This document shows, piece by piece, positions 2,316 through 14,537 of a stretch of DNA of 64,000 nucleotides (within the stretch, counting starts at the first letter, position 1; each line of letters begins with the position of its first letter). Below the pieces are notes generated by a model. The model was not told where the DNA came from. It did no database searches and saw nothing but the letters and a program-made list of their open reading frames with translations. The stretch lies in NCBI GenBank assembly GCA_902765725.1, contig CACXAT010000001.1, forward strand, positions 1 to 64,000, written 5' to 3'. Source of the DNA: an uncultured Lachnospiraceae bacterium. GTDB lineage: Bacteria; Bacillota; Clostridia; Lachnospirales; Lachnospiraceae. The position numbers and the translations under genes were made by a program.

Positions 2316-2431
2316 TATGCCCGGTACATGCTCTCTTCCATTTTGGAAAAGGTTAACTGCTTCCAGTATGTATGCCGGACGTAGAGGCTGAAAACAACAA
2401 TCTGAAAAGAAAACTCATGGAGGTACTCTCA

Positions 2432-2698
2432 ATGAAAAATGAAGACGACAGGGTAGATCATCTGCAAAACCAGATTCAGGAAATTGAAATGCGACAGAAA
2501 AAACTGACCTCGCAGATTAGACAGATTGGCAAGCGTCATGAATATACAAGCCGAAAAGCGCGTACGCACTACTTGATTCAGCTCGGTGCTGCTGTGGAAC
2601 ATGTATACGGTAATATGCTGGCAGATAAATCATTCGAGGATCTGTGCCGGTTCTTTTCTTCTCAAAAAAAGAGTCCTGAAGATGATTGTCGGCGTTGA
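2432..2698 (+). CDS. DUF3847 domain-containing mobilization-associated protein
   Basis: An 88-residue protein: an N-terminal coiled coil (heptad-rich, about residues 5-40), then a conserved RKARTHYLIQLGAAVEHVYG segment and a short C-terminal helix. This is the DUF3847 pattern, a family that sits directly upstream of relaxase genes in Firmicutes mobile elements and may be an oriT accessory (MobC-like) protein. The chosen ATG at 2432 follows GGAGG by eight bases; an upstream ATG (2372) lacks a good site. A homologue lies at 14226-14537 in IME-2, in the same place relative to oriT and relaxase. Confidence 0.75.
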   Translation: MKNEDDRVDHLQNQIQEIEMRQKKLTSQIRQIGKRHEYTSRKARTHYLIQLGAAVEHVYGNMLADKSFEDLCRFFSSQKKSPEDDCRR

Positions 2699-2726: not shown

Positions 2727-2842
2727 GCGCACTTATAGACAACCGAAGGGTCGTCTACTGCGCGCGTGCCTTCAGCAGGAGCCCTCCCTGGGCGGGGTCC
2801 TTCCGGACAGGAGCCTTCCGGCGGACTCCTGCGGAGGGCTCC
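2727..2842. other. origin of transfer (oriT) of IME-1
   Basis: GCGCACTTATAGAC at 2727-2740 reads, on the minus strand, ATAAGTGCGCC, which matches the nick region of RSF1010/R1162-type MOBQ plasmids (TAAGTGCG|CCCT). An imperfect inverted partner (GTCTACTGCGCGC) follows at about 2753. A larger hairpin lies beside it: GGAGCCCTCC (2778-2787) pairs with GGAGGGCTCC (2833-2842). The site lies between DUF3847 and the relaxase, and the same nick motif occupies the equivalent gap in IME-2. Confidence 0.75.
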
Positions 2843-2914
2843 ATCCCAGCTCAATATTCTATATCCGGCTTACGCGAGCATGTTCCCGGAAGCCTGGAAC
2901 AAAGACACACACTC

Positions 2915-2948
2915 AAAACCGCATCGCTTTCGCGTGATGCGGTTTTTC
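2915..2948 (+). terminator. intrinsic terminator upstream of the relaxase gene
   Basis: AAAACCGCATC (2915-2925) pairs perfectly with GATGCGGTTTT (2936-2946) and ends in a T run. It lies between oriT and the relaxase start at 3019, so relaxase expression must pass or bypass it. Confidence 0.75.
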
Positions 2949-3018
2949 ATTGCCTGTACGTGCCGACATCCAGCAGGATGCGCTGCATGCATGAGCTGCG
3001 ATGGAAAGGAGACTCACA

Positions 3019-4557
3019 ATGGCGATCTATCATATGTCAATCAAAATTCACAGCCGCAGCAAAGGGCAGTCTGCCGTTGCCTGCGCTGCTTATCGAAGCG
3101 GAGAAAAGCTGAAAGATGAAGAAACCGGAAGGATCTGTGACTACCGAAAAAAGCAAGGTGTTGTATACAGTGAGATCCTTCTCTGCGAACATGCCCCTCC
3201 GGAGTTTTCGAATCGCGAAATACTTTGGAACAGCGTTATGAGGTGCGAGAAAAACTCTGATGCACAATTCGCCCGCGAATTTGAGCTCGCACTTCCAAGA
3301 GAACTTAACCGGAGCACACACATTCGTTTGCTCCACCATTTTCTGGAACCGCTGGTTCGCGAGGGGATGTGCATTGATTTTTCCATTCATGACAAAGGAG
3401 ACGGCAATCCCCACTGCCATGCTTTGGCAACTATGCGCCCGATCAAAGAAGACGGCTCATGGGGCCTGAAGGAACGCAAAGGATATCTGCTGGATGATAC
3501 TGGAGAACGGATCCCTATTATCGATCCGGAAACCGGACTCCAGAAAGTCGACAGCAGAAACCGCAGACAGTGGAAACGTGGCATGGTCGAAACGACCGGA
3601 TGGAACAAAAAGGAGAATGCGGAGCGATGGAGAAAAGAATGGGAAGAATGCTGCAACATGTTTCTCCCGGATAAAGACAAGGTCGACCATCGCAGTTACC
3701 TCCGGCAGGGCGTCCCTCAGATCGCAACAAAACATGAAGGCTATGAGGCTAGACAGATGGAAATGGAGGGCCGGTTCTCTGACCGGTGCGAGGAAAACCG
3801 AAAGATACGGAATCTGAATTCTCTGCTTCGCAGACTGAAACAGAAGATCTGCACCCTGACACAAAAACTGAAACAGCTCAAAAAAACATTTTATGAGATC
3901 AAGGAGACAGTCTATGAACAAAAAGATATTGGTAGACAACACAGAAATCGAAGCCATGTTCCTGGGTCTTATGGAACTTCTCTCACAACAGCAGAGTCTG
4001 ATCGGGGAGGCATCTTCTCTCTTGCTGGAACAGAAGGACCAGAGCGAAAGTATCCTGGGCGAACACAAGCTTCTTTCCCAACAGCTCAACGAAACGAAGA
4101 TAGAACTGGAGAAATGGAAGGAATTATCACAGACACTCAACGCAGAAAACAACTCATTGCTCAGGCAGAATCAGGAATTGCTGCGCTTGGCGAATCAATC
4201 CGGGAGGTGAAAAGACTAAATGAACGGTATGCAAGACTTCAGCGCCGACGATCTACTGGATCAGATGGAGGAGATGCAGAACGAGATCGAGCAAAAGGAC
4301 GACCAAATAAAGGATCAGGAAACCCAGCTTTACCAATTGAAGAAAACGGATGGCGAAAAAGACTGCGAGATCCAGAGGTTGAACGCATTTATCACGAATT
4401 TGAACAAAGAGAACGAAGACGCGCTAAGCAAGCAGGAAGAGAATCGGAACAAACTCGAGCAAGATCTCAAAAAGGAGAGATCACGCCGGCAATCTCTGAG
4501 CGAGACCTACCAGAGAGTAAACAGCCAATATATCACGCTCCTTCAAGAGCACGATAG
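3019..4557 (+). CDS. mobL: MobA/MobL family relaxase (MOBQ type)
   Basis: A 512-residue relaxase that would nick oriT, attach to the 5' end through a tyrosine and lead the strand into the recipient. The N-terminus (MAIYHMSIKIHSRSKGQSA) carries the family tyrosine. At about residues 120-137 the metal-binding histidine motif is visible (DKGDGNPHCHALATMRPI). Residues 1-220 form the MobA/MobL domain; the C-terminal 280 residues are charged and less ordered. The ATG at 3019 follows AAAGGAGA; six upstream codons from 3001 are excluded. From 3914 onward the same DNA also encodes other proteins in another frame, which is also true of the IME-2 homologue. Confidence 0.9.
   Translation: MAIYHMSIKIHSRSKGQSAVACAAYRSGEKLKDEETGRICDYRKKQGVVYSEILLCEHAPPEFSNREILWNSVMRCEKNSDAQFAREFELALPRELNRSTHIRLLHHFLEPLVREGMCIDFSIHDKGDGNPHCHALATMRPIKEDGSWGLKERKGYLLDDTGERIPIIDPETGLQKVDSRNRRQWKRGMVETTGWNKKENAERWRKEWEECCNMFLPDKDKVDHRSYLRQGVPQIATKHEGYEARQMEMEGRFSDRCEENRKIRNLNSLLRRLKQKICTLTQKLKQLKKTFYEIKETVYEQKDIGRQHRNRSHVPGSYGTSLTTAESDRGGIFSLAGTEGPERKYPGRTQASFPTAQRNEDRTGEMEGIITDTQRRKQLIAQAESGIAALGESIREVKRLNERYARLQRRRSTGSDGGDAERDRAKGRPNKGSGNPALPIEENGWRKRLRDPEVERIYHEFEQRERRRAKQAGRESEQTRARSQKGEITPAISERDLPESKQPIYHAPSRAR
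3914..4210 (+). CDS. coiled-coil protein nested out of frame within the relaxase gene
   Basis: A 98-residue, Leu/Gln/Glu-rich coiled-coil protein read in another frame inside the relaxase gene. The ATG at 3914 follows AAGGAGA by seven bases. It aligns without gaps over about 84 residues to the first part of the IME-2 protein at 12451-13095: both have a LL..QQ...EA..LL segment, a shared KWK, and a QNQEL near the end. The relaxase frame is also conserved over this region (EME(G/D) and AESGIA in both). No family name is recognised; a role as relaxosome accessory is a guess from position. Confidence 0.75.
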   Translation: MNKKILVDNTEIEAMFLGLMELLSQQQSLIGEASSLLLEQKDQSESILGEHKLLSQQLNETKIELEKWKELSQTLNAENNSLLRQNQELLRLANQSGR

Positions 4558-5164
4558 GTTTCAGCGTCGCTATAAACAGGATGTCAGTATGGCAGAGAAC
4601 AGAACGAAATCAGCCGAATACATTATGGCCCAGACCCAAAAGAACTGTAATGCTGCCAACGCCGCGCTTTTACAGTTTCGGACAGGCGGCATTTTTCTCC
4701 TGGGTGCTTCGGTTCCCTGTCTTCTTGTTCCCGGAGGCAGTTTTCTACGTGACTGCAGTCACCTGAGCCGCCTGACGGTGTCAGCAGCATACTCTGCATT
4801 TCTGAGGATCGTCAGCACGATCAAGAAACTGTCTGAACCGGCAATGGGATGGAATCACTTTGCAGGATATATCCTGCGGCTGCTTATGGCTCTTGTACCC
4901 ATCGCAGTGTTTGCCGCTATTGTTTACCTCACAACGCGATTCATAGTCCGGTATTTCAGCATCGCCGCAAACAGGATTCCTGCCCTTGCGTTTCTGCTTA
5001 CAAGTGCGCTGTGCGCAGCGTCATGGCAGGCCTGGAGCGCTGCAGACTATTACCAGGGAATAAACACTGCACTTGCGCTGATTATCGTCCAGCCGGTGTT
5101 CTGGCTTCTTAGATTGCTTCTCTCTCCGGTTGTACGGCGGGTGCTGCACCGGATTCGGGAGTAA
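4220..5164 (+). CDS. coiled-coil membrane protein, partly overlapping the relaxase gene
   Basis: A 314-residue protein. Residues 1 to about 150 are an almost continuous coiled coil (for example QMEEMQNEIEQKDDQIKDQE). The C-terminal half has about four hydrophobic segments near residues 155-175, 218-245, 257-277 and 282-305. The ATG at 4220 follows GGGAGG at 4202-4207. Its first 338 bases overlap the relaxase 3' end in another frame. In IME-2 the corresponding coiled coil is fused to the preceding nested protein and lacks the membrane part. It could tether the relaxosome to the membrane, but that is inference. Confidence 0.7.
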   Translation: MNGMQDFSADDLLDQMEEMQNEIEQKDDQIKDQETQLYQLKKTDGEKDCEIQRLNAFITNLNKENEDALSKQEENRNKLEQDLKKERSRRQSLSETYQRVNSQYITLLQEHDRFQRRYKQDVSMAENRTKSAEYIMAQTQKNCNAANAALLQFRTGGIFLLGASVPCLLVPGGSFLRDCSHLSRLTVSAAYSAFLRIVSTIKKLSEPAMGWNHFAGYILRLLMALVPIAVFAAIVYLTTRFIVRYFSIAANRIPALAFLLTSALCAASWQAWSAADYYQGINTALALIIVQPVFWLLRLLLSPVVRRVLHRIRE

Positions 5165-5339: not shown

Positions 5340-7178
5340 ATGAATAAAACCATAATGTATCAGTATATGAAAAATGGGCCAGCAGATACCCGTTCCAAAT
5401 ATCTGTTCCTTGTTGAAGATAAGGATATCGCCTTGAATATCTGCCTCGTAGGCAGTTCAGCACAGGCAATCCTGGACTGTAAAGATGAGACAGCATACTT
5501 CAATCTCGAAGAATTCCTGAACTACATGGAGTCTATCAGCAACACCGGGACAAGCCAGATAGACTTCACCTATGTGCTTTGCCTGTCGACCAGGAATCGC
5601 AATGACAGGGTAGAAGAATACTGCCGGAACAACCACCTGAATTTCAAGAACGCATGGCAGCTGTTCCGTAACAAAGAATACTGCGGTAAAACCAACTATA
5701 TAGACACCGTCCGGGAAATCATAAAAAACTACATAGACCGGCAGGAAGGGCCTGATGGAGAAGGGATCGGCATAGACCGGTCCGTTTTTCATATTTACGG
5801 GAAAAATGATGTGCCGAAAGGCGTTTATGACGGAAAAGTCGTGGACTACCTCATGACGCATGTCCGGATGTTCGTTATCGGATCTACACCCTATCTGTAT
5901 GCCGAAGGCGTATACCGGAAAGATCCCGATGGATCTTCCCTTCGTTCACATATCCGCGAGCTCCTGTTTGATGAATTCAGAAACAGTTCTATTATCAACC
6001 GGATATATCGGCAGCTGATCGATCAGCCATTTTTGAAAAAGACAATCAATGAGATAAATCTTCAGCCTCGGCGGTGGGTGAACTTCCAGAACGGGTATTT
6101 TGACCCGGTATCCTGGACATTGATCAAGCATGATCCGAAGTATCTCACCATCAATCAGATTCCTATGCGTTTTGACCCAGGTTCCTGGCCCAGACCGGAT
6201 CCACCGGATACAGCAAGTACAGAGGATACAGCGTCAGCTGATAAAGCTTTGGAGAATCCTATACTTCATAAGCCACACCTGATCGACAGGTTTCTGGAAA
6301 CAGCAATTTCGGATCCGGATAACCTTCGGATGCTCTGGGAATATTGTGGCTACTGCTTCACTGCTGACACAAGTATGCAGAAATTCCTGATGATCACCGG
6401 AAAGGGAGGTACCGGGAAATCGGTCGTAATTGATCTAATCACATCCATCATCGGATCGGAAAACTGTTCTGCGGTGACTCTCCAGAATCTGAACGAGCGG
6501 TTTTATCCAAGCTGCCTGTTCGGCATGCTTCTGAACGCCTGTGCGGACATCCCAAGCACTGCAATGGAGAACGTTGACGGGCTGAAAAAGGCCACTGGCG
6601 AGGACTTGATGATCTATGAACGCAAGGGTGAGAACCCCAGTTTCTACCACAGTTATGCCAAGCTCTTGTTCTCTGCGAATGAGATGCCGCTCAATCTTGA
6701 TGACAGGACGAATGCCTACTACCGACGCATGCTGGTTATCGAAATGAGTCATGTCGTCAGCGCAGAGGAAAACGATCTTGACTTGAAGTCAAAGCTCTAT
6801 GAAGAAAGGGACTATTTTCTCTTCCGTGCAATGGAAGGCCTACATCAGCTGTATACACAGGGGCGCTTCACACAGAGCCGGAGCAGCCAGGCACATATCG
6901 AAGAGCTGCGCCGGTCAGCGGATAGTATTCAGGCCTTTCTCTATGATCGGATCATGATAAAGGAAGGATCAAGGATTGCACGAAGCAGCATGTACGAGTC
7001 CTACAAGAATTACTGCGAGGAAAATGACCGCCGTCCTTACGGCAAATCCGTTTTCTTCCGCCGCATGAAAGACATACAACTGAAAAAGACCAGTGCCGGA
7101 TTCTTCTATATGAACGTCGACTTTAAGGAAGATGATTTCGTGGAAGTGGATCCTGAGGAGGAAGTTCCATTTTCATAG
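5340..7178 (+). CDS. P4-type phage/plasmid primase-helicase (D5-like)
   Basis: A 612-residue protein ending in a D5/P4-type superfamily 3 helicase. The Walker A motif is visible (ITGKGGTGKSVVID, about residues 352-365), followed by acidic Walker B-like and sensor segments (LLNACADIPS; LLFSANEMP), then a winged-helix-like C-terminus. The N-terminal 300 residues show no CHC2 zinc finger. These proteins unwind and may prime element DNA after excision or transfer. The ATG at 5340 follows GAGAGGGG; an upstream ATG at 5223 has no ribosome site. IME-2 encodes a shorter homologue at 10449-11828. Confidence 0.8.
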   Translation: MNKTIMYQYMKNGPADTRSKYLFLVEDKDIALNICLVGSSAQAILDCKDETAYFNLEEFLNYMESISNTGTSQIDFTYVLCLSTRNRNDRVEEYCRNNHLNFKNAWQLFRNKEYCGKTNYIDTVREIIKNYIDRQEGPDGEGIGIDRSVFHIYGKNDVPKGVYDGKVVDYLMTHVRMFVIGSTPYLYAEGVYRKDPDGSSLRSHIRELLFDEFRNSSIINRIYRQLIDQPFLKKTINEINLQPRRWVNFQNGYFDPVSWTLIKHDPKYLTINQIPMRFDPGSWPRPDPPDTASTEDTASADKALENPILHKPHLIDRFLETAISDPDNLRMLWEYCGYCFTADTSMQKFLMITGKGGTGKSVVIDLITSIIGSENCSAVTLQNLNERFYPSCLFGMLLNACADIPSTAMENVDGLKKATGEDLMIYERKGENPSFYHSYAKLLFSANEMPLNLDDRTNAYYRRMLVIEMSHVVSAEENDLDLKSKLYEERDYFLFRAMEGLHQLYTQGRFTQSRSSQAHIEELRRSADSIQAFLYDRIMIKEGSRIARSSMYESYKNYCEENDRRPYGKSVFFRRMKDIQLKKTSAGFFYMNVDFKEDDFVEVDPEEEVPFS

Positions 7179-7304: not shown

Positions 7305-8615
7305 ATGAAAAAGAAAACAAACGCGCCAGAGTTTCGCCTGGAGCTGCATGAAAAACTGAATAATCCGAATCTGACTGCTCCGTTGAGCGAAGCTGATCTC
7401 TTGCAGTACGCTGTTAAGAACGGTAAAATTGATATTGACGTTATGCTGGGTGAGATCAATGACATGAATAAAAAAGAAATACTATCCCGGCACAAGTACG
7501 CAATATCGCACTGTAAGAAAGGAGATCGAGAATACTACTGCACGCACCTGCCTAATCCAAAAGCAGGCGGTGCAAGACTGTTTCGCAAAAGAGATACTCT
7601 GGAACAGCTTGAGGAAGCAATCGTAGAATACTATCGCAAGCTGGAGGAAGAGATCTACATCGATAAGGTCTGGAAAGAATATAATGACCGGCGCCTTGAC
7701 TTCGGTGAGATCCAGCAATCCAGCTATGACCGCTACAATGATGATTTCCACCGTTTCTTTATAGCCCGGCCAAATAACCTGATTCATCGCAAGTTCCGTC
7801 TGATCACCCCGGATGACATTGAAGTGTTCATCAAAACGGCAATCAAAGAGTTAGGATTGTCTCGGAAAGCATATGGCGGCCTTCGCACGATTATTCGCGG
7901 AACCTTCAAGTACGGGAAACGCCGCAGATATACAGATCTCAGCATCTCCGAGTTCTTCGGGGATCTGGAACTGCCACGGAACATCTTTGAGAGAAGGATT
8001 ATCGAAAAGGAAAAAGAAGTCTTCAATGAAGATGAGATCCCTGTCATTACCAGTTATCTTCGGGAAAATCCGGATCTGCGCAACCTGGGGATTCTACTTA
8101 CCTTCGAGACCGGACTTCGTGTCGGCGAGCTAGCTGCATTGAGGGCCTCTGATCTGAATGGCAGGGTGATCCGGATCCGCCGGTCAGAAGTAAAACACCG
8201 TATCAGTACTGAATCTGGAAGTAAGTGGCTCTTTGAGGTCCAGGAACATGCTAAGACCGACGCTGGTGCAAGAGATCTGATCATTCCGTCCGGAGCGGCT
8301 GAGACTTTTCGCAGAATCACCGCGCTGAATCCGGACGGGGAATACCTGTTTGAGGAAAACGGAAAACGCTTAAATGCAAATTCGTTCAACAAGCGGCTCA
8401 CTTCAGTATGCCGAAAAGCAGGCATCCCGAAACGGTCGATGCATAAGATCCGCAAAACCTATGGAACCACACTGATCGATTCCGGTGTAGATGAAAAGTT
8501 CATCCAGGAACAAATGGGGCATCGTGATATTACAACCACAAAAAAGTTCTACTATTTCAGCAATAAGTCCCAGAAAAACAAGGAATTGCAGATCGAGCGA
8601 GCATTCAGTTCCTGA
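7305..8615 (+). CDS. int: tyrosine recombinase/integrase of IME-1
   Basis: A 436-residue integrase. An N-terminal region of about 100 residues is followed by a SAM-like core-binding domain (about 115-215) and the catalytic domain. Catalytic residues are visible: Arg in TFETGLRVGELAALR, the HKIRKTYG box (His and Arg), the QMGHRDITTT box (His) and the nucleophile Tyr in KKFYYFSNKS. It starts after GGAGAG. It ends about 115 bp before the shared att core at 8731, as expected for an element integrated at that site. It is clearly related to the IME-2 integrase at 8864-10099. Confidence 0.92.
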   Translation: MKKKTNAPEFRLELHEKLNNPNLTAPLSEADLLQYAVKNGKIDIDVMLGEINDMNKKEILSRHKYAISHCKKGDREYYCTHLPNPKAGGARLFRKRDTLEQLEEAIVEYYRKLEEEIYIDKVWKEYNDRRLDFGEIQQSSYDRYNDDFHRFFIARPNNLIHRKFRLITPDDIEVFIKTAIKELGLSRKAYGGLRTIIRGTFKYGKRRRYTDLSISEFFGDLELPRNIFERRIIEKEKEVFNEDEIPVITSYLRENPDLRNLGILLTFETGLRVGELAALRASDLNGRVIRIRRSEVKHRISTESGSKWLFEVQEHAKTDAGARDLIIPSGAAETFRRITALNPDGEYLFEENGKRLNANSFNKRLTSVCRKAGIPKRSMHKIRKTYGTTLIDSGVDEKFIQEQMGHRDITTTKKFYYFSNKSQKNKELQIERAFSS

Positions 8616-8863: not shown

Positions 8864-10099
8864 TCAGAACATCACCGCCTGAGCGATCTGATCCTGCTTG
8901 GTCTTTGCACTCCTGTTGCTGTAATAATAGAGTTTTCTGGTAGTAGAAACATCTGTGTGGCCCATCTGCTCTGCTACGAAGCTGTCATCAACATCATGAT
9001 CAAGCAGCATCGTTCCATATGTTTTACGGATTTTATGACTCGAATGATGTACGATTCCAAGCTTATCACAGATGTCGGAGATCCGTTTGTTCAACGTATT
9101 GCCTCTGATCCGCTTTCCCTTATTCATCAACAGATATTCACCGTTTGGATTCAGTGCCTGTATTTTTCTTAAGGTCTCATGTGCTTGCGGAGGCAGTACA
9201 ATATCCCTGCAGCCGGCATCCGTCTTTGCATGCTCTTTAATGGCCAGTTTCCAGGTGCCATCTTCCTCGCGATATTTGTACTCTGTACGGAATACATGGA
9301 GTACATTCTGCCCAATGTCAGAAGGCTTTAAGGCAACTGCTTCACCTACTCTTAAGCCTGTCTGGAACATGAGCATCAATCCCAGATTCCAGATATCTTC
9401 ATTGTTCTGAAGATAATTCCGGATCAAGGGCGTGTCTGCTTCCGAAAAGGTTTCACATTCCTTATGGCGCACCACGGTTCTGAAGGCGTGTCTGGAAATA
9501 TCAAGATCTCCCATGAACTGGGTAATACTGATATTGGTAAATCCATGCTTCTTTGCATACTTGAACATCCCGTTGATCAGTATCGCCAATCCCGAATACG
9601 CCCTGCGCGTCAGTTTCAGTTCCGAGATCGTTGTCTTGATAAACGTCTCCAGATCATCTTCTGTGATATTCTTTACTTTCTTCCTGCAGATCGGCTGAGA
9701 CTTTCTAAAGAATCGTTTATAATCGTCTTTGTACCGATCATAGGACTGCCTTTGGATCTCTCCATACAGCAGTTTTTCAGATGACCAGGCATTAAAAATG
9801 TCCTCCAGATAAATGGCATCTTCCTGGGCTTTATAATGCTTTACCAGATAATTCTCCAGTTCCTCCTTTGTTTTTCTGCGTCTGATCTTACGTTTTCCAT
9901 TTTCGTCGTAAATATAAGTCAGATACATGCCTTTCTTATCTTGCCAGATTTCTCGTGAATGCTGTGACAATAACTGTTCTCGCTTCATTCTCTCAACACT
10001 GGCAGCTATCTCGTCAACACGGAGTATACCATTGTTGACAGCCTCTCTCAATACGTCCTGTATATCCATCTCCTGGAGAATCTGTGTCTCAGCATCCAC
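8864..10099 (-). CDS. int: tyrosine recombinase/integrase of IME-2
   Basis: A 411-residue integrase homologous along its length to the IME-1 enzyme. The catalytic boxes are visible: Arg in MFQTGLRVGEAVAL, SSHKIRKTYGTMLL, QMGHTDVSTTRK and the tyrosine in KLYYYSNRS. A GTG at 10099 is preferred as start because AGGAGG stands seven bases upstream and the resulting N-terminus aligns with that of IME-1. The longer open frame to 10273 has no such site. The gene's 3' end meets the arm repeats beside the att site, so this enzyme most likely placed IME-2 in tRNA-Trp. Confidence 0.92.
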   Translation of the reverse strand: MDAETQILQEMDIQDVLREAVNNGILRVDEIAASVERMKREQLLSQHSREIWQDKKGMYLTYIYDENGKRKIRRRKTKEELENYLVKHYKAQEDAIYLEDIFNAWSSEKLLYGEIQRQSYDRYKDDYKRFFRKSQPICRKKVKNITEDDLETFIKTTISELKLTRRAYSGLAILINGMFKYAKKHGFTNISITQFMGDLDISRHAFRTVVRHKECETFSEADTPLIRNYLQNNEDIWNLGLMLMFQTGLRVGEAVALKPSDIGQNVLHVFRTEYKYREEDGTWKLAIKEHAKTDAGCRDIVLPPQAHETLRKIQALNPNGEYLLMNKGKRIRGNTLNKRISDICDKLGIVHHSSHKIRKTYGTMLLDHDVDDSFVAEQMGHTDVSTTRKLYYYSNRSAKTKQDQIAQAVMF

Positions 10100-10448
10100 G
10101 GTCTCACCTCCTTTCCCGTCAGACGTTTTGCAATTCGTCAAATGTCTATTCGGAAACTTGTGGGCATTCCCACAGTGCTTGTCCCCTTTTCTTCTGCACA
10201 TCCACACGTCTGGAAGACGGATATCAAAACACTGTATTCCCCGCTTCCCAGCACGTTTTAGACATATAGACACTTACTTTTATTTCAGTAATTCATAAGA
10301 AGAAGTATTCAAGATTCATATAAATAAGAGGAACAACCGGCCTGATATCCGTCTATCTGTCTGGCGATGCCATCCCTGGTCCTGCCAGGCATTTCCATGC
10401 ATGAGTCAGCTGACCGGATTTCTCCTTGTTCCTTTTGCTTTTCGAAGA

Positions 10449-12450: not shown

Positions 12451-13095
12451 TTATCCTCCCATGCCTGCAGCTGTGCATTTCTCTTTTTGTAATTCCCGGA
12501 TCTTTTCTCTGGCACTCTCATACAGGCCTCTCATCTGCTCATAGGATTTCCACAGATCATCGTATGCGGACTTCGCGTTCTCGTACTTCTGTTCCATCTC
12601 TTCCCAGAGCGTAAGCAGCATCTCGTTTTCTTCGTTCAATCTGGCACTCAATTGTCTCAATGAAATCTTCTGTGTGTACAAGGAGCGGGTTTCCTGCTTC
12701 CCTCTGGCTAATGCTGCCAATAGTTCCTCCCTCGTCATATCCTGCGAGGCTGCCGCTTCTTTGCCGGAGATCTCTTTCCTGCTTAAGCTGTTCGTACTGG
12801 CTTCGAATTCTTTTCCCGGCATCCATAACTCTTTTAATCCCTGCAATTCCTGATTCTGCTTCACCAATACTTCGTTCTGTTCTGACAGATCGCTGCAAAA
12901 GATCTTCCATTTCCGGATCTGTTCCTGCAGCTCCCGGATCTTCACTTCGTCCTTTTGGGACTGGTCCATCAGCTGATGCATGTCCTGGCAAATATCCTGC
13001 AGGAGTGCCATCGCCTCCTTCAGATAAGCCTGCTGCTTTCTGAGCAGCGAAATCATACAGTTCATCAATTCCATAACCGCTTCCGTCATTGCCAT
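12451..13095 (-). CDS. coiled-coil protein nested out of frame within the IME-2 relaxase gene
   Basis: A 214-residue, almost entirely coiled-coil protein. ATG at 13095 follows AAAGGGGAG. More than 80% of the gene lies inside the relaxase gene (12557-14032) on the same strand but in another frame. Its first 85 residues align to the 98-residue IME-1 protein at 3914-4210 (shared LL..QQ, KWK, QNQEL), and its later part corresponds in position to the coiled coil of the IME-1 protein at 4220. It has no membrane segments. No named family is recognised. Conservation of both frames between elements argues that both products are made. Confidence 0.75.
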   Translation of the reverse strand: MAMTEAVMELMNCMISLLRKQQAYLKEAMALLQDICQDMHQLMDQSQKDEVKIRELQEQIRKWKIFCSDLSEQNEVLVKQNQELQGLKELWMPGKEFEASTNSLSRKEISGKEAAASQDMTREELLAALARGKQETRSLYTQKISLRQLSARLNEENEMLLTLWEEMEQKYENAKSAYDDLWKSYEQMRGLYESAREKIRELQKEKCTAAGMGG

Positions 13096-14139: not shown

Positions 14140-14181
14140 GCGCACTTATTCAGGACGACCTCTGGTTGTCTATAAGTGCGC
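14140..14181. other. origin of transfer (oriT) of IME-2
   Basis: GCGCACTTAT (14140-14149) and ATAAGTGCGC (14172-14181) form a perfect 10-base inverted repeat around 22 bases. The right arm reads CTATAAGTGCGCA and matches the MOBQ nick region (TAAGTGCG|C) of RSF1010-type plasmids. With the neighbouring GGTTGT it shares an 18-base core with IME-1 in the same orientation relative to the relaxase gene. Confidence 0.75.
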
Positions 14182-14225
14182 ATTTCTTCGAAATGAGCCT
14201 TTTTTCATAATCTGTGGGGAAATGA

Positions 14226-14537
14226 TCAGGGCAGCATAAAGGAGCATCTGCCGTCAATCACATTGAATGATCCTATTTTTCTCTCTGCTGTTTTCAGGTA
14301 TTCCCGGAAAGCCGGAAGATCTTCCTTCGGAATCTGTCTTCCCATAACAGACTCGACTTCAGCACCAATACCGATCAGCCGGTGTACACGCTGTCTTCTG
14401 TTCTGATAACTGATCTCATTCTCCTTTTTTCTGCGACATGCCTGTAACTGTTTGTTTTTTCTTTCGACCGATTCCAGTTTTTCTTCCAGATCCGCTACGT
14501 CCTGTTTCATCTTTTCAACCTGTTTGTCCATGATCAT
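14226..14537 (-). CDS. DUF3847 domain-containing mobilization-associated protein
   Basis: A 103-residue homologue of the IME-1 protein at 2432-2698. It has an N-terminal coiled coil (DLEEKLESVERKNKQLQACR), then the conserved RRQRVHRLIGIGAEVESVMG segment and a short C-terminal tail. ATG at 14537 follows AAGGAGG by five bases. It precedes oriT and the relaxase, the usual place for this family, and is probably part of the relaxosome or its regulation; direct evidence of function is absent. Confidence 0.75.
   Translation of the reverse strand: MIMDKQVEKMKQDVADLEEKLESVERKNKQLQACRRKKENEISYQNRRQRVHRLIGIGAEVESVMGRQIPKEDLPAFREYLKTAERKIGSFNVIDGRCSFMLP

Follow-up and report, generated by a model that had tools for sequence, protein, structure and literature searches.

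MobB of the IncQ plasmids has been reported to tether the relaxosome to the membrane and the coupling protein, and a comparable role has been inferred for MbeB and MbeD of ColE1. The relaxase transport signals of R1162 reportedly require MobB, to go by the title of a 2007 paper of Parker and Meyer. The genes for these proteins lie inside relaxase genes. In RSF1010, mobB is located within mobA/repB in a different reading frame, and mobilization requires each of MobA, MobB and MobC (PMC2200642). We checked the layout in two further plasmids. In the IncQ plasmid pDN1, mobB (1702-2112) occupies the +1 frame of mobA, which is open to 3062, and its product is a helix plus one membrane segment; MobA matches PF03389, MobB matches PF17511 and the oriT has a GGCGCACTTA core. 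In ColE1, mbeB and mbeD are consecutive +1-frame genes in mbeA, and both match their own profiles (PF04837 and PF04899). Nested genes of this kind were therefore already known, and the sequence-only reading of the locus described here erred in supposing that no such overlap had been described for MobA/MobL relaxases.

The window analysed is a stretch of 64,000 nucleotides from an uncultured Lachnospiraceae bacterium (GCA_902765725.1, contig CACXAT010000001.1, positions 1 to 64,000). It contains two integrative mobilizable elements, IME-1 and IME-2, with the following features.

2372-2698, forward strand: DUF3847-like gene of IME-1, upstream of the relaxase gene (PF12958, 31.1 bits, under the curated cutoff of 40), a possible relaxosome accessory
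2727-2770, forward strand: oriT-like segment of IME-1, beginning GCGCACTTATAGACAACC, with the GGCGCACTTA core common to IncQ pDN1
3019-4557, forward strand: MobQ/MobA_MobL relaxase gene of IME-1 (PF03389, E=4.8e-77; NF041496 MobQ, 219.8 bits, cutoff 200)
3901-3907, forward strand: ORF1 ribosome-binding site AAGGAGA, seen in the sequence (anti-SD duplex -8.3 kcal/mol)
3914-4210, forward strand: ORF1 of IME-1, nested, +1 frame, 98 aa, predicted single long helix
4202-4210, forward strand: ORF2 ribosome-binding site GGGAGG(TGA), seen in the sequence (anti-SD duplex -14.1 kcal/mol)
4220-5164, forward strand: ORF2 of IME-1, +1 frame, 314 aa, positional counterpart of DUF6040
12451-13095, reverse strand: nested +1-frame gene of IME-2, 214 aa, an apparent fusion of ORF1 and an ORF2-like helix
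12557-14032, reverse strand: MobQ relaxase gene of IME-2 (PF03389, E=7.6e-77; 49% identity to the IME-1 relaxase)
14140-14183, reverse strand: oriT-like segment of IME-2, with two GCGCACTTA/TAAGTGCGC cores
14226-14537, reverse strand: DUF3847-like gene of IME-2 (PF12958, 38.4 bits, cutoff 40)

Both relaxases match the MobQ/MobA_MobL models (PF03389 and NF041496) above the curated cutoffs. The integrase genes of IME-1 (7305-8615, forward strand) and IME-2 (8864-10273, reverse strand) face each other about 250 bp apart, which indicates that two MobQ elements have integrated adjacently in opposite orientation.

The IME-1 relaxase has its catalytic part at about residues 1-250, and ORF1 and ORF2 overprint its tail from about residue 298. 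Nine bases separate the ORF1 stop from the ORF2 start, and the GGGAGG of ORF2 (4202) runs into the TGA of ORF1 (4208). The first 338 nt of ORF2, about one third of the gene, lie within the relaxase gene and the rest extends beyond the relaxase stop. The sequence-only reading had placed these two genes and their ribosome sites, and the nested frame of IME-2, at the same coordinates and out of frame with the relaxases, and all of this was correct. The motifs it had listed as common to IME-1 and IME-2 are likewise present, both in the nested proteins (LL..QQ, KWK and QNQEL) and in the relaxase frames (EME(G/D) and AESGIA). No membrane segment was detected in the nested IME-2 protein by hydrophobic-segment analysis.

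When the relaxase codons were resampled synonymously, the +1 frame remained free of stops over ORF1 in 11.5% of the draws for IME-1, in 1.8% for IME-2 and in 0.6-29% for other loci. The open frame is thus unremarkable for IME-1 alone (P=0.115), and these rates favour the idea that it is a by-product of the codon and amino-acid make-up of the relaxase tail, the nested protein never being made. The reverse test, in which the nested proteins were held fixed, was stronger: 0.3-8% of draws kept the relaxase frame open across ORF1, and for the ORF2 overlap the share was <0.1% at most loci, the exception being L004, where the overlap is short. The by-product idea is also at odds with the continuation of ORF2 as a conserved membrane protein beyond the relaxase stop. 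What is decisive against chance is conservation, as the +1 frame is kept open in independent loci with similar starts and similar proteins; chance was rejected on this ground and on the codon tests described below, despite the P value for IME-1. The nested IME-2 protein, used as a query, found no relative in 397 Lachnospiraceae genomes, so what supports IME-2 is its resemblance to IME-1 together with P=0.018.

Substitution rates were compared frame by frame in four diverged representatives (group A), whose alignment was gapless except for 9 nt in one sequence. In the N-terminal part of the relaxase, where there is no overlap, pN/pS was 0.18 in the relaxase frame and 1.22 in the +1 frame. Over ORF1 the order was inverted, with 0.39 [0.32-0.48] in the nested frame and 1.30 [1.03-1.72] in the relaxase frame, and over the ORF2 overlap the values were 0.58 [0.46-0.73] and 0.73 [0.56-0.96], respectively. 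The baseline of the dNN/dNS test is biased (0.70 in the non-overlapping part), so it is the inversion between zones that is telling. Between IME-1 and L032, dNN/dNS was 0.18 [0-0.71] over ORF1 and, in the ORF2 overlap, 0.09 [0.02-0.21]; the pair has too few differences for constraint on the relaxase tail to reach significance. Both frames were constrained in the MOBP pair L103/L104 (dNN/dNS 0.28 [0.18-0.41], dNN/dSN 0.35 [0.22-0.54]), where the relaxase frame over the ORF2 overlap gave 0.56 [0.38-0.82]. The pair L118/L120 was uninformative on frame constraint.

These codon tests, the frame-specific rates that the sequence-only reading had proposed as a check, indicate that the nested genes are real, and they bear out its claim of dual coding rather than chance. 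With selection over ORF1 acting on the nested frame and not on the relaxase frame, the opposite of what a by-product of the relaxase would give, we regard that explanation as very improbable. By every sequence test the nested frames behave as true coding sequence. The further claim that both frames are conserved stood over the ORF2 overlap, in several lineages, and fell over ORF1, where the relaxase frame is without amino-acid constraint.

The functional relaxase might end before ORF1, the open frame across ORF1 and ORF2 being unneeded as relaxase. Consistent with this, relaxase-frame pN/pS over ORF1 is at least 1, the tail is far shorter in L004, whose relaxase reaches only 22 codons into ORF2, and the MobQ pairs L047/L121 and L109/L111, taken singly, give relaxase-frame estimates close to 1 in the ORF2 overlap. 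No relaxase stop codon precedes ORF1, however, the relaxase frame is open over both nested genes despite the low odds, and the constraint on it over the ORF2 overlap in group A and in L103/L104 speaks for a used tail, so that an early end seems unlikely to us. We read the relaxase tail over ORF1 as a tolerated linker that is kept open, and the ORF2 overlap as a stretch that appears truly shared by both frames in several lineages.

The ORF1+ORF2 pair was also found in L032, the relaxase of which is 95% identical to that of IME-1, in L003, L004, L035 and L036, in an Agathobacter rectalis plasmid (NZ_CP143948, L046) and in many loci reached via DUF6040. Both an ORF2-type and a relaxase frame were readable in 43 distinct loci, many being close relatives of others in the set; in all 43 the ORF2 or DUF6040-type gene starts inside the relaxase frame, always in +1, with an overlap of 68-611 nt. 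At four ORF2-type loci no relaxase could be detected; two of these lie at contig ends and two are fragments. Ribosome sites lie upstream of most nested starts, and dozens of mobile elements from gut bacteria share the nested arrangement. ORF2 occurs without ORF1 in the MOBP members and in some MobQ members (L047, L119 and L121). The conserved pair was not found in ordinary MobL relaxases of the same genomes (L005-L031). A scan of genome contigs with the relaxase found L032 as a single locus, a scan of viral contigs found seven MobL relatives, with the nested pair in none of those whose relaxase was read, and a tblastn search of plasmids with the L004 ORF2 gave no match.

A block, AGAGAAAGYGAGGGA, precedes the ORF1 and/or ORF2 starts in L004, L035, L036, L079, L093, L097, L099, L109 and L111, sometimes both starts within one locus, and may reflect an old duplication of the start region. 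Several loci are damaged. In L102, L103 and L107 the relaxase is frameshifted or fragmentary and the ORF1/ORF2 frame is still open; both have decayed in L094. L087 (G191, about 2790-3807, reverse strand) has kept a full-length ORF2, with a putative toxin-antitoxin pair upstream, and has lost the relaxase core; it may be a decaying remnant. L037 (G651, from another family of the same order) has a relaxase followed by an overlapping +1-frame gene for a 450-aa helical membrane protein, which had no match to the DUF6040 or ORF2 queries and is possibly a further branch.

The 43 overlapping loci include relaxases of two kinds. DUF6040 genes are nested in MOBP (PF03432) relaxases as well, including that of pCD-METRO, and BLAST at E 1e-3 finds no match between the MobQ and MOBP relaxase cores. 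The ORF2 parts of the two groups match strongly (E to 1e-47), and so do some stretches of the overlap. L109 (MobQ) and L120 (MOBP) have a single block in common, 147 nt at 74% DNA identity, which lies inside the overlap. With cores unrelated by BLAST and matching ORF2 and overlap parts, the simplest reading is that the dual-coding cassette, consisting of the relaxase tail in frame 0 and the DUF6040 gene in frame +1, is an exchangeable module, which recombination inside relaxase genes has carried between MOBQ and MOBP. We hold this to be moderately probable; convergent re-use may be the alternative. If the cassette has been exchanged, one overprinted accessory protein would serve relaxases of different kinds.

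The ORF1 model, built from 13 sequences, is a single helix over residues 2-97 (mean pLDDT 95.2), and the protein has the recurring motifs ...QQ... and LNxENxxLxxQNxxL. The ORF2 model has a long, confidently modelled N-terminal helix, with blocks near 90, and hydrophobic segments of low confidence (whole-length pLDDT 66); in IME-1 about four such segments follow the helix. PF19506 (DUF6040) matches ORF2 of L003, L046 and L047 above its curated cutoff. It gave no significant match to IME-1 ORF2 in the profile search, and this protein aligns with its DUF6040-type relatives in the N-terminal part and in position. No significant similarity to the MobB, MbeB or MbeD families was found in the sequence of ORF1 or ORF2, and Pfam matches of both to eukaryotic coiled-coil families were dismissed as compositional noise.

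Annotation practice probably hides both features. In L046 ORF2 the PF19506 profile covers residues 90-321 and nothing before them. The public records start the DUF6040 protein late, near the relaxase end, at 6661 instead of 6442 in L046 and at 1994 in L118, which drops the N-terminal helix. The L046 record, the one annotated record carrying ORF1, does not list it, in a plasmid gene table that is incomplete. We found no mention of DUF6040, and no description of the overlap in Clostridia, in the literature, of which coverage was incomplete. New here are the unannotated ORF1 family, the truncated annotation of DUF6040 and an overlap cassette that MOBQ and MOBP relaxases have probably exchanged.

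The existence, frame, conservation, selection and distribution of the nested genes were obtained from sequence; from these we infer their expression, the pairing of ORF1 with ORF2, membrane tethering and a role in transfer. The reading that we prefer, and consider probable, is a three-in-one mobilization operon in which ORF1 and ORF2 act as a MobB-like tether of the relaxase-DNA complex to the membrane and coupling protein. In frame 0, the relaxase would nick the adjacent oriT-like site. The +1 frame on its C-terminal tail would supply two overprinted auxiliary mobilization genes, of which ORF1 would encode a small protein that is nearly one long helix and ORF2, of the DUF6040 type, a helical stalk with membrane segments. 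Translation of ORF2 is probably coupled to that of ORF1, since its ribosome site abuts the ORF1 stop. ORF2 would sit in the membrane and ORF1 would pair with the ORF2 helix, the relaxase tail or both; the two proteins would anchor the relaxase-DNA complex at the membrane and link it to the coupling protein of a helper T4SS (conjugation system). The anatomy and position of the genes, and the reported dependence of R1162 relaxase transport on MobB, make a MobB-like role in coupling the relaxosome to the membrane likely; the IME-2 version without a membrane segment, and the many members with ORF2 only, count against it, as do the lack of a significant match to MobB, MbeB or MbeD, the low confidence of the whole-length ORF2 model and the non-significant constraint on the relaxase tail between IME-1 and L032.

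ORF1 and ORF2 could also be real nested genes with a function outside DNA transfer, such as entry exclusion, surface interference or element maintenance. NCBI names MbeD a mobilization/exclusion protein, ORF2 is a predicted membrane protein with several hydrophobic segments, and in L087 it persists without a relaxase core, a locus that may be mere decay. The strict and always overlapping association of ORF2 with relaxase genes of two families points instead to a role in transfer, and we think a function elsewhere improbable, if less so than an early end of the relaxase. The nested genes are probably needed for the transfer of many mobilizable elements in gut Clostridia, among them the plasmid pCD-METRO, which has been linked to metronidazole resistance in C. 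difficile.

The nested-gene system is thus confirmed and widespread, and the modest surprise lies in its spread over relaxase families and its absence from annotation. The nearest described relative is IncQ MobB (RSF1010, R1162 and pDN1), which has a relaxase of the same Pfam family, PF03389, a nested gene in +1 that starts just past the catalytic domain (codon ~249 in pDN1, ~298 in IME-1), and an oriT core, GGCGCACTTA, common to pDN1 and the loci studied here. The helix and membrane parts provided by MobB alone in pDN1 are provided by ORF1 and ORF2 jointly in IME-1, with the membrane part in ORF2. IncQ has one nested gene whereas IME-1 has two, IME-1 ORF2 has several hydrophobic segments and extends past the relaxase stop, unlike IncQ MobB, and IncQ mobA carries a primase domain that the relaxases here are without; the PF17511 profile had no match in ORF1 or ORF2 of IME-1, IME-2 or their relatives. 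ColE1 resembles IME-1 in having two consecutive +1 genes in the 3' part of the relaxase gene, with few bases between them, one for a helix and membrane-segment protein and one for a small helical protein. It differs in its MOBP(HEN) relaxase, in the reversed order, with the membrane protein first, and in that both genes are fully nested; PF04837 and PF04899 had no match in ORF1 or ORF2. The DUF6040 genes beside relaxase genes (pCD-METRO ORF4 and Agathobacter rectalis NZ_CP143948) share the position and the +1 overlap of ORF2, and differ in the late start and unlisted ORF1 of their records and in the PF19506 match, which was not significant for IME-1 ORF2. That Gram-positive MOBQ and MOBP elements, IncQ and ColE1 all have this out-of-frame layout, always in +1, suggests that relaxase tails have repeatedly come to host overprinted helical membrane partners.
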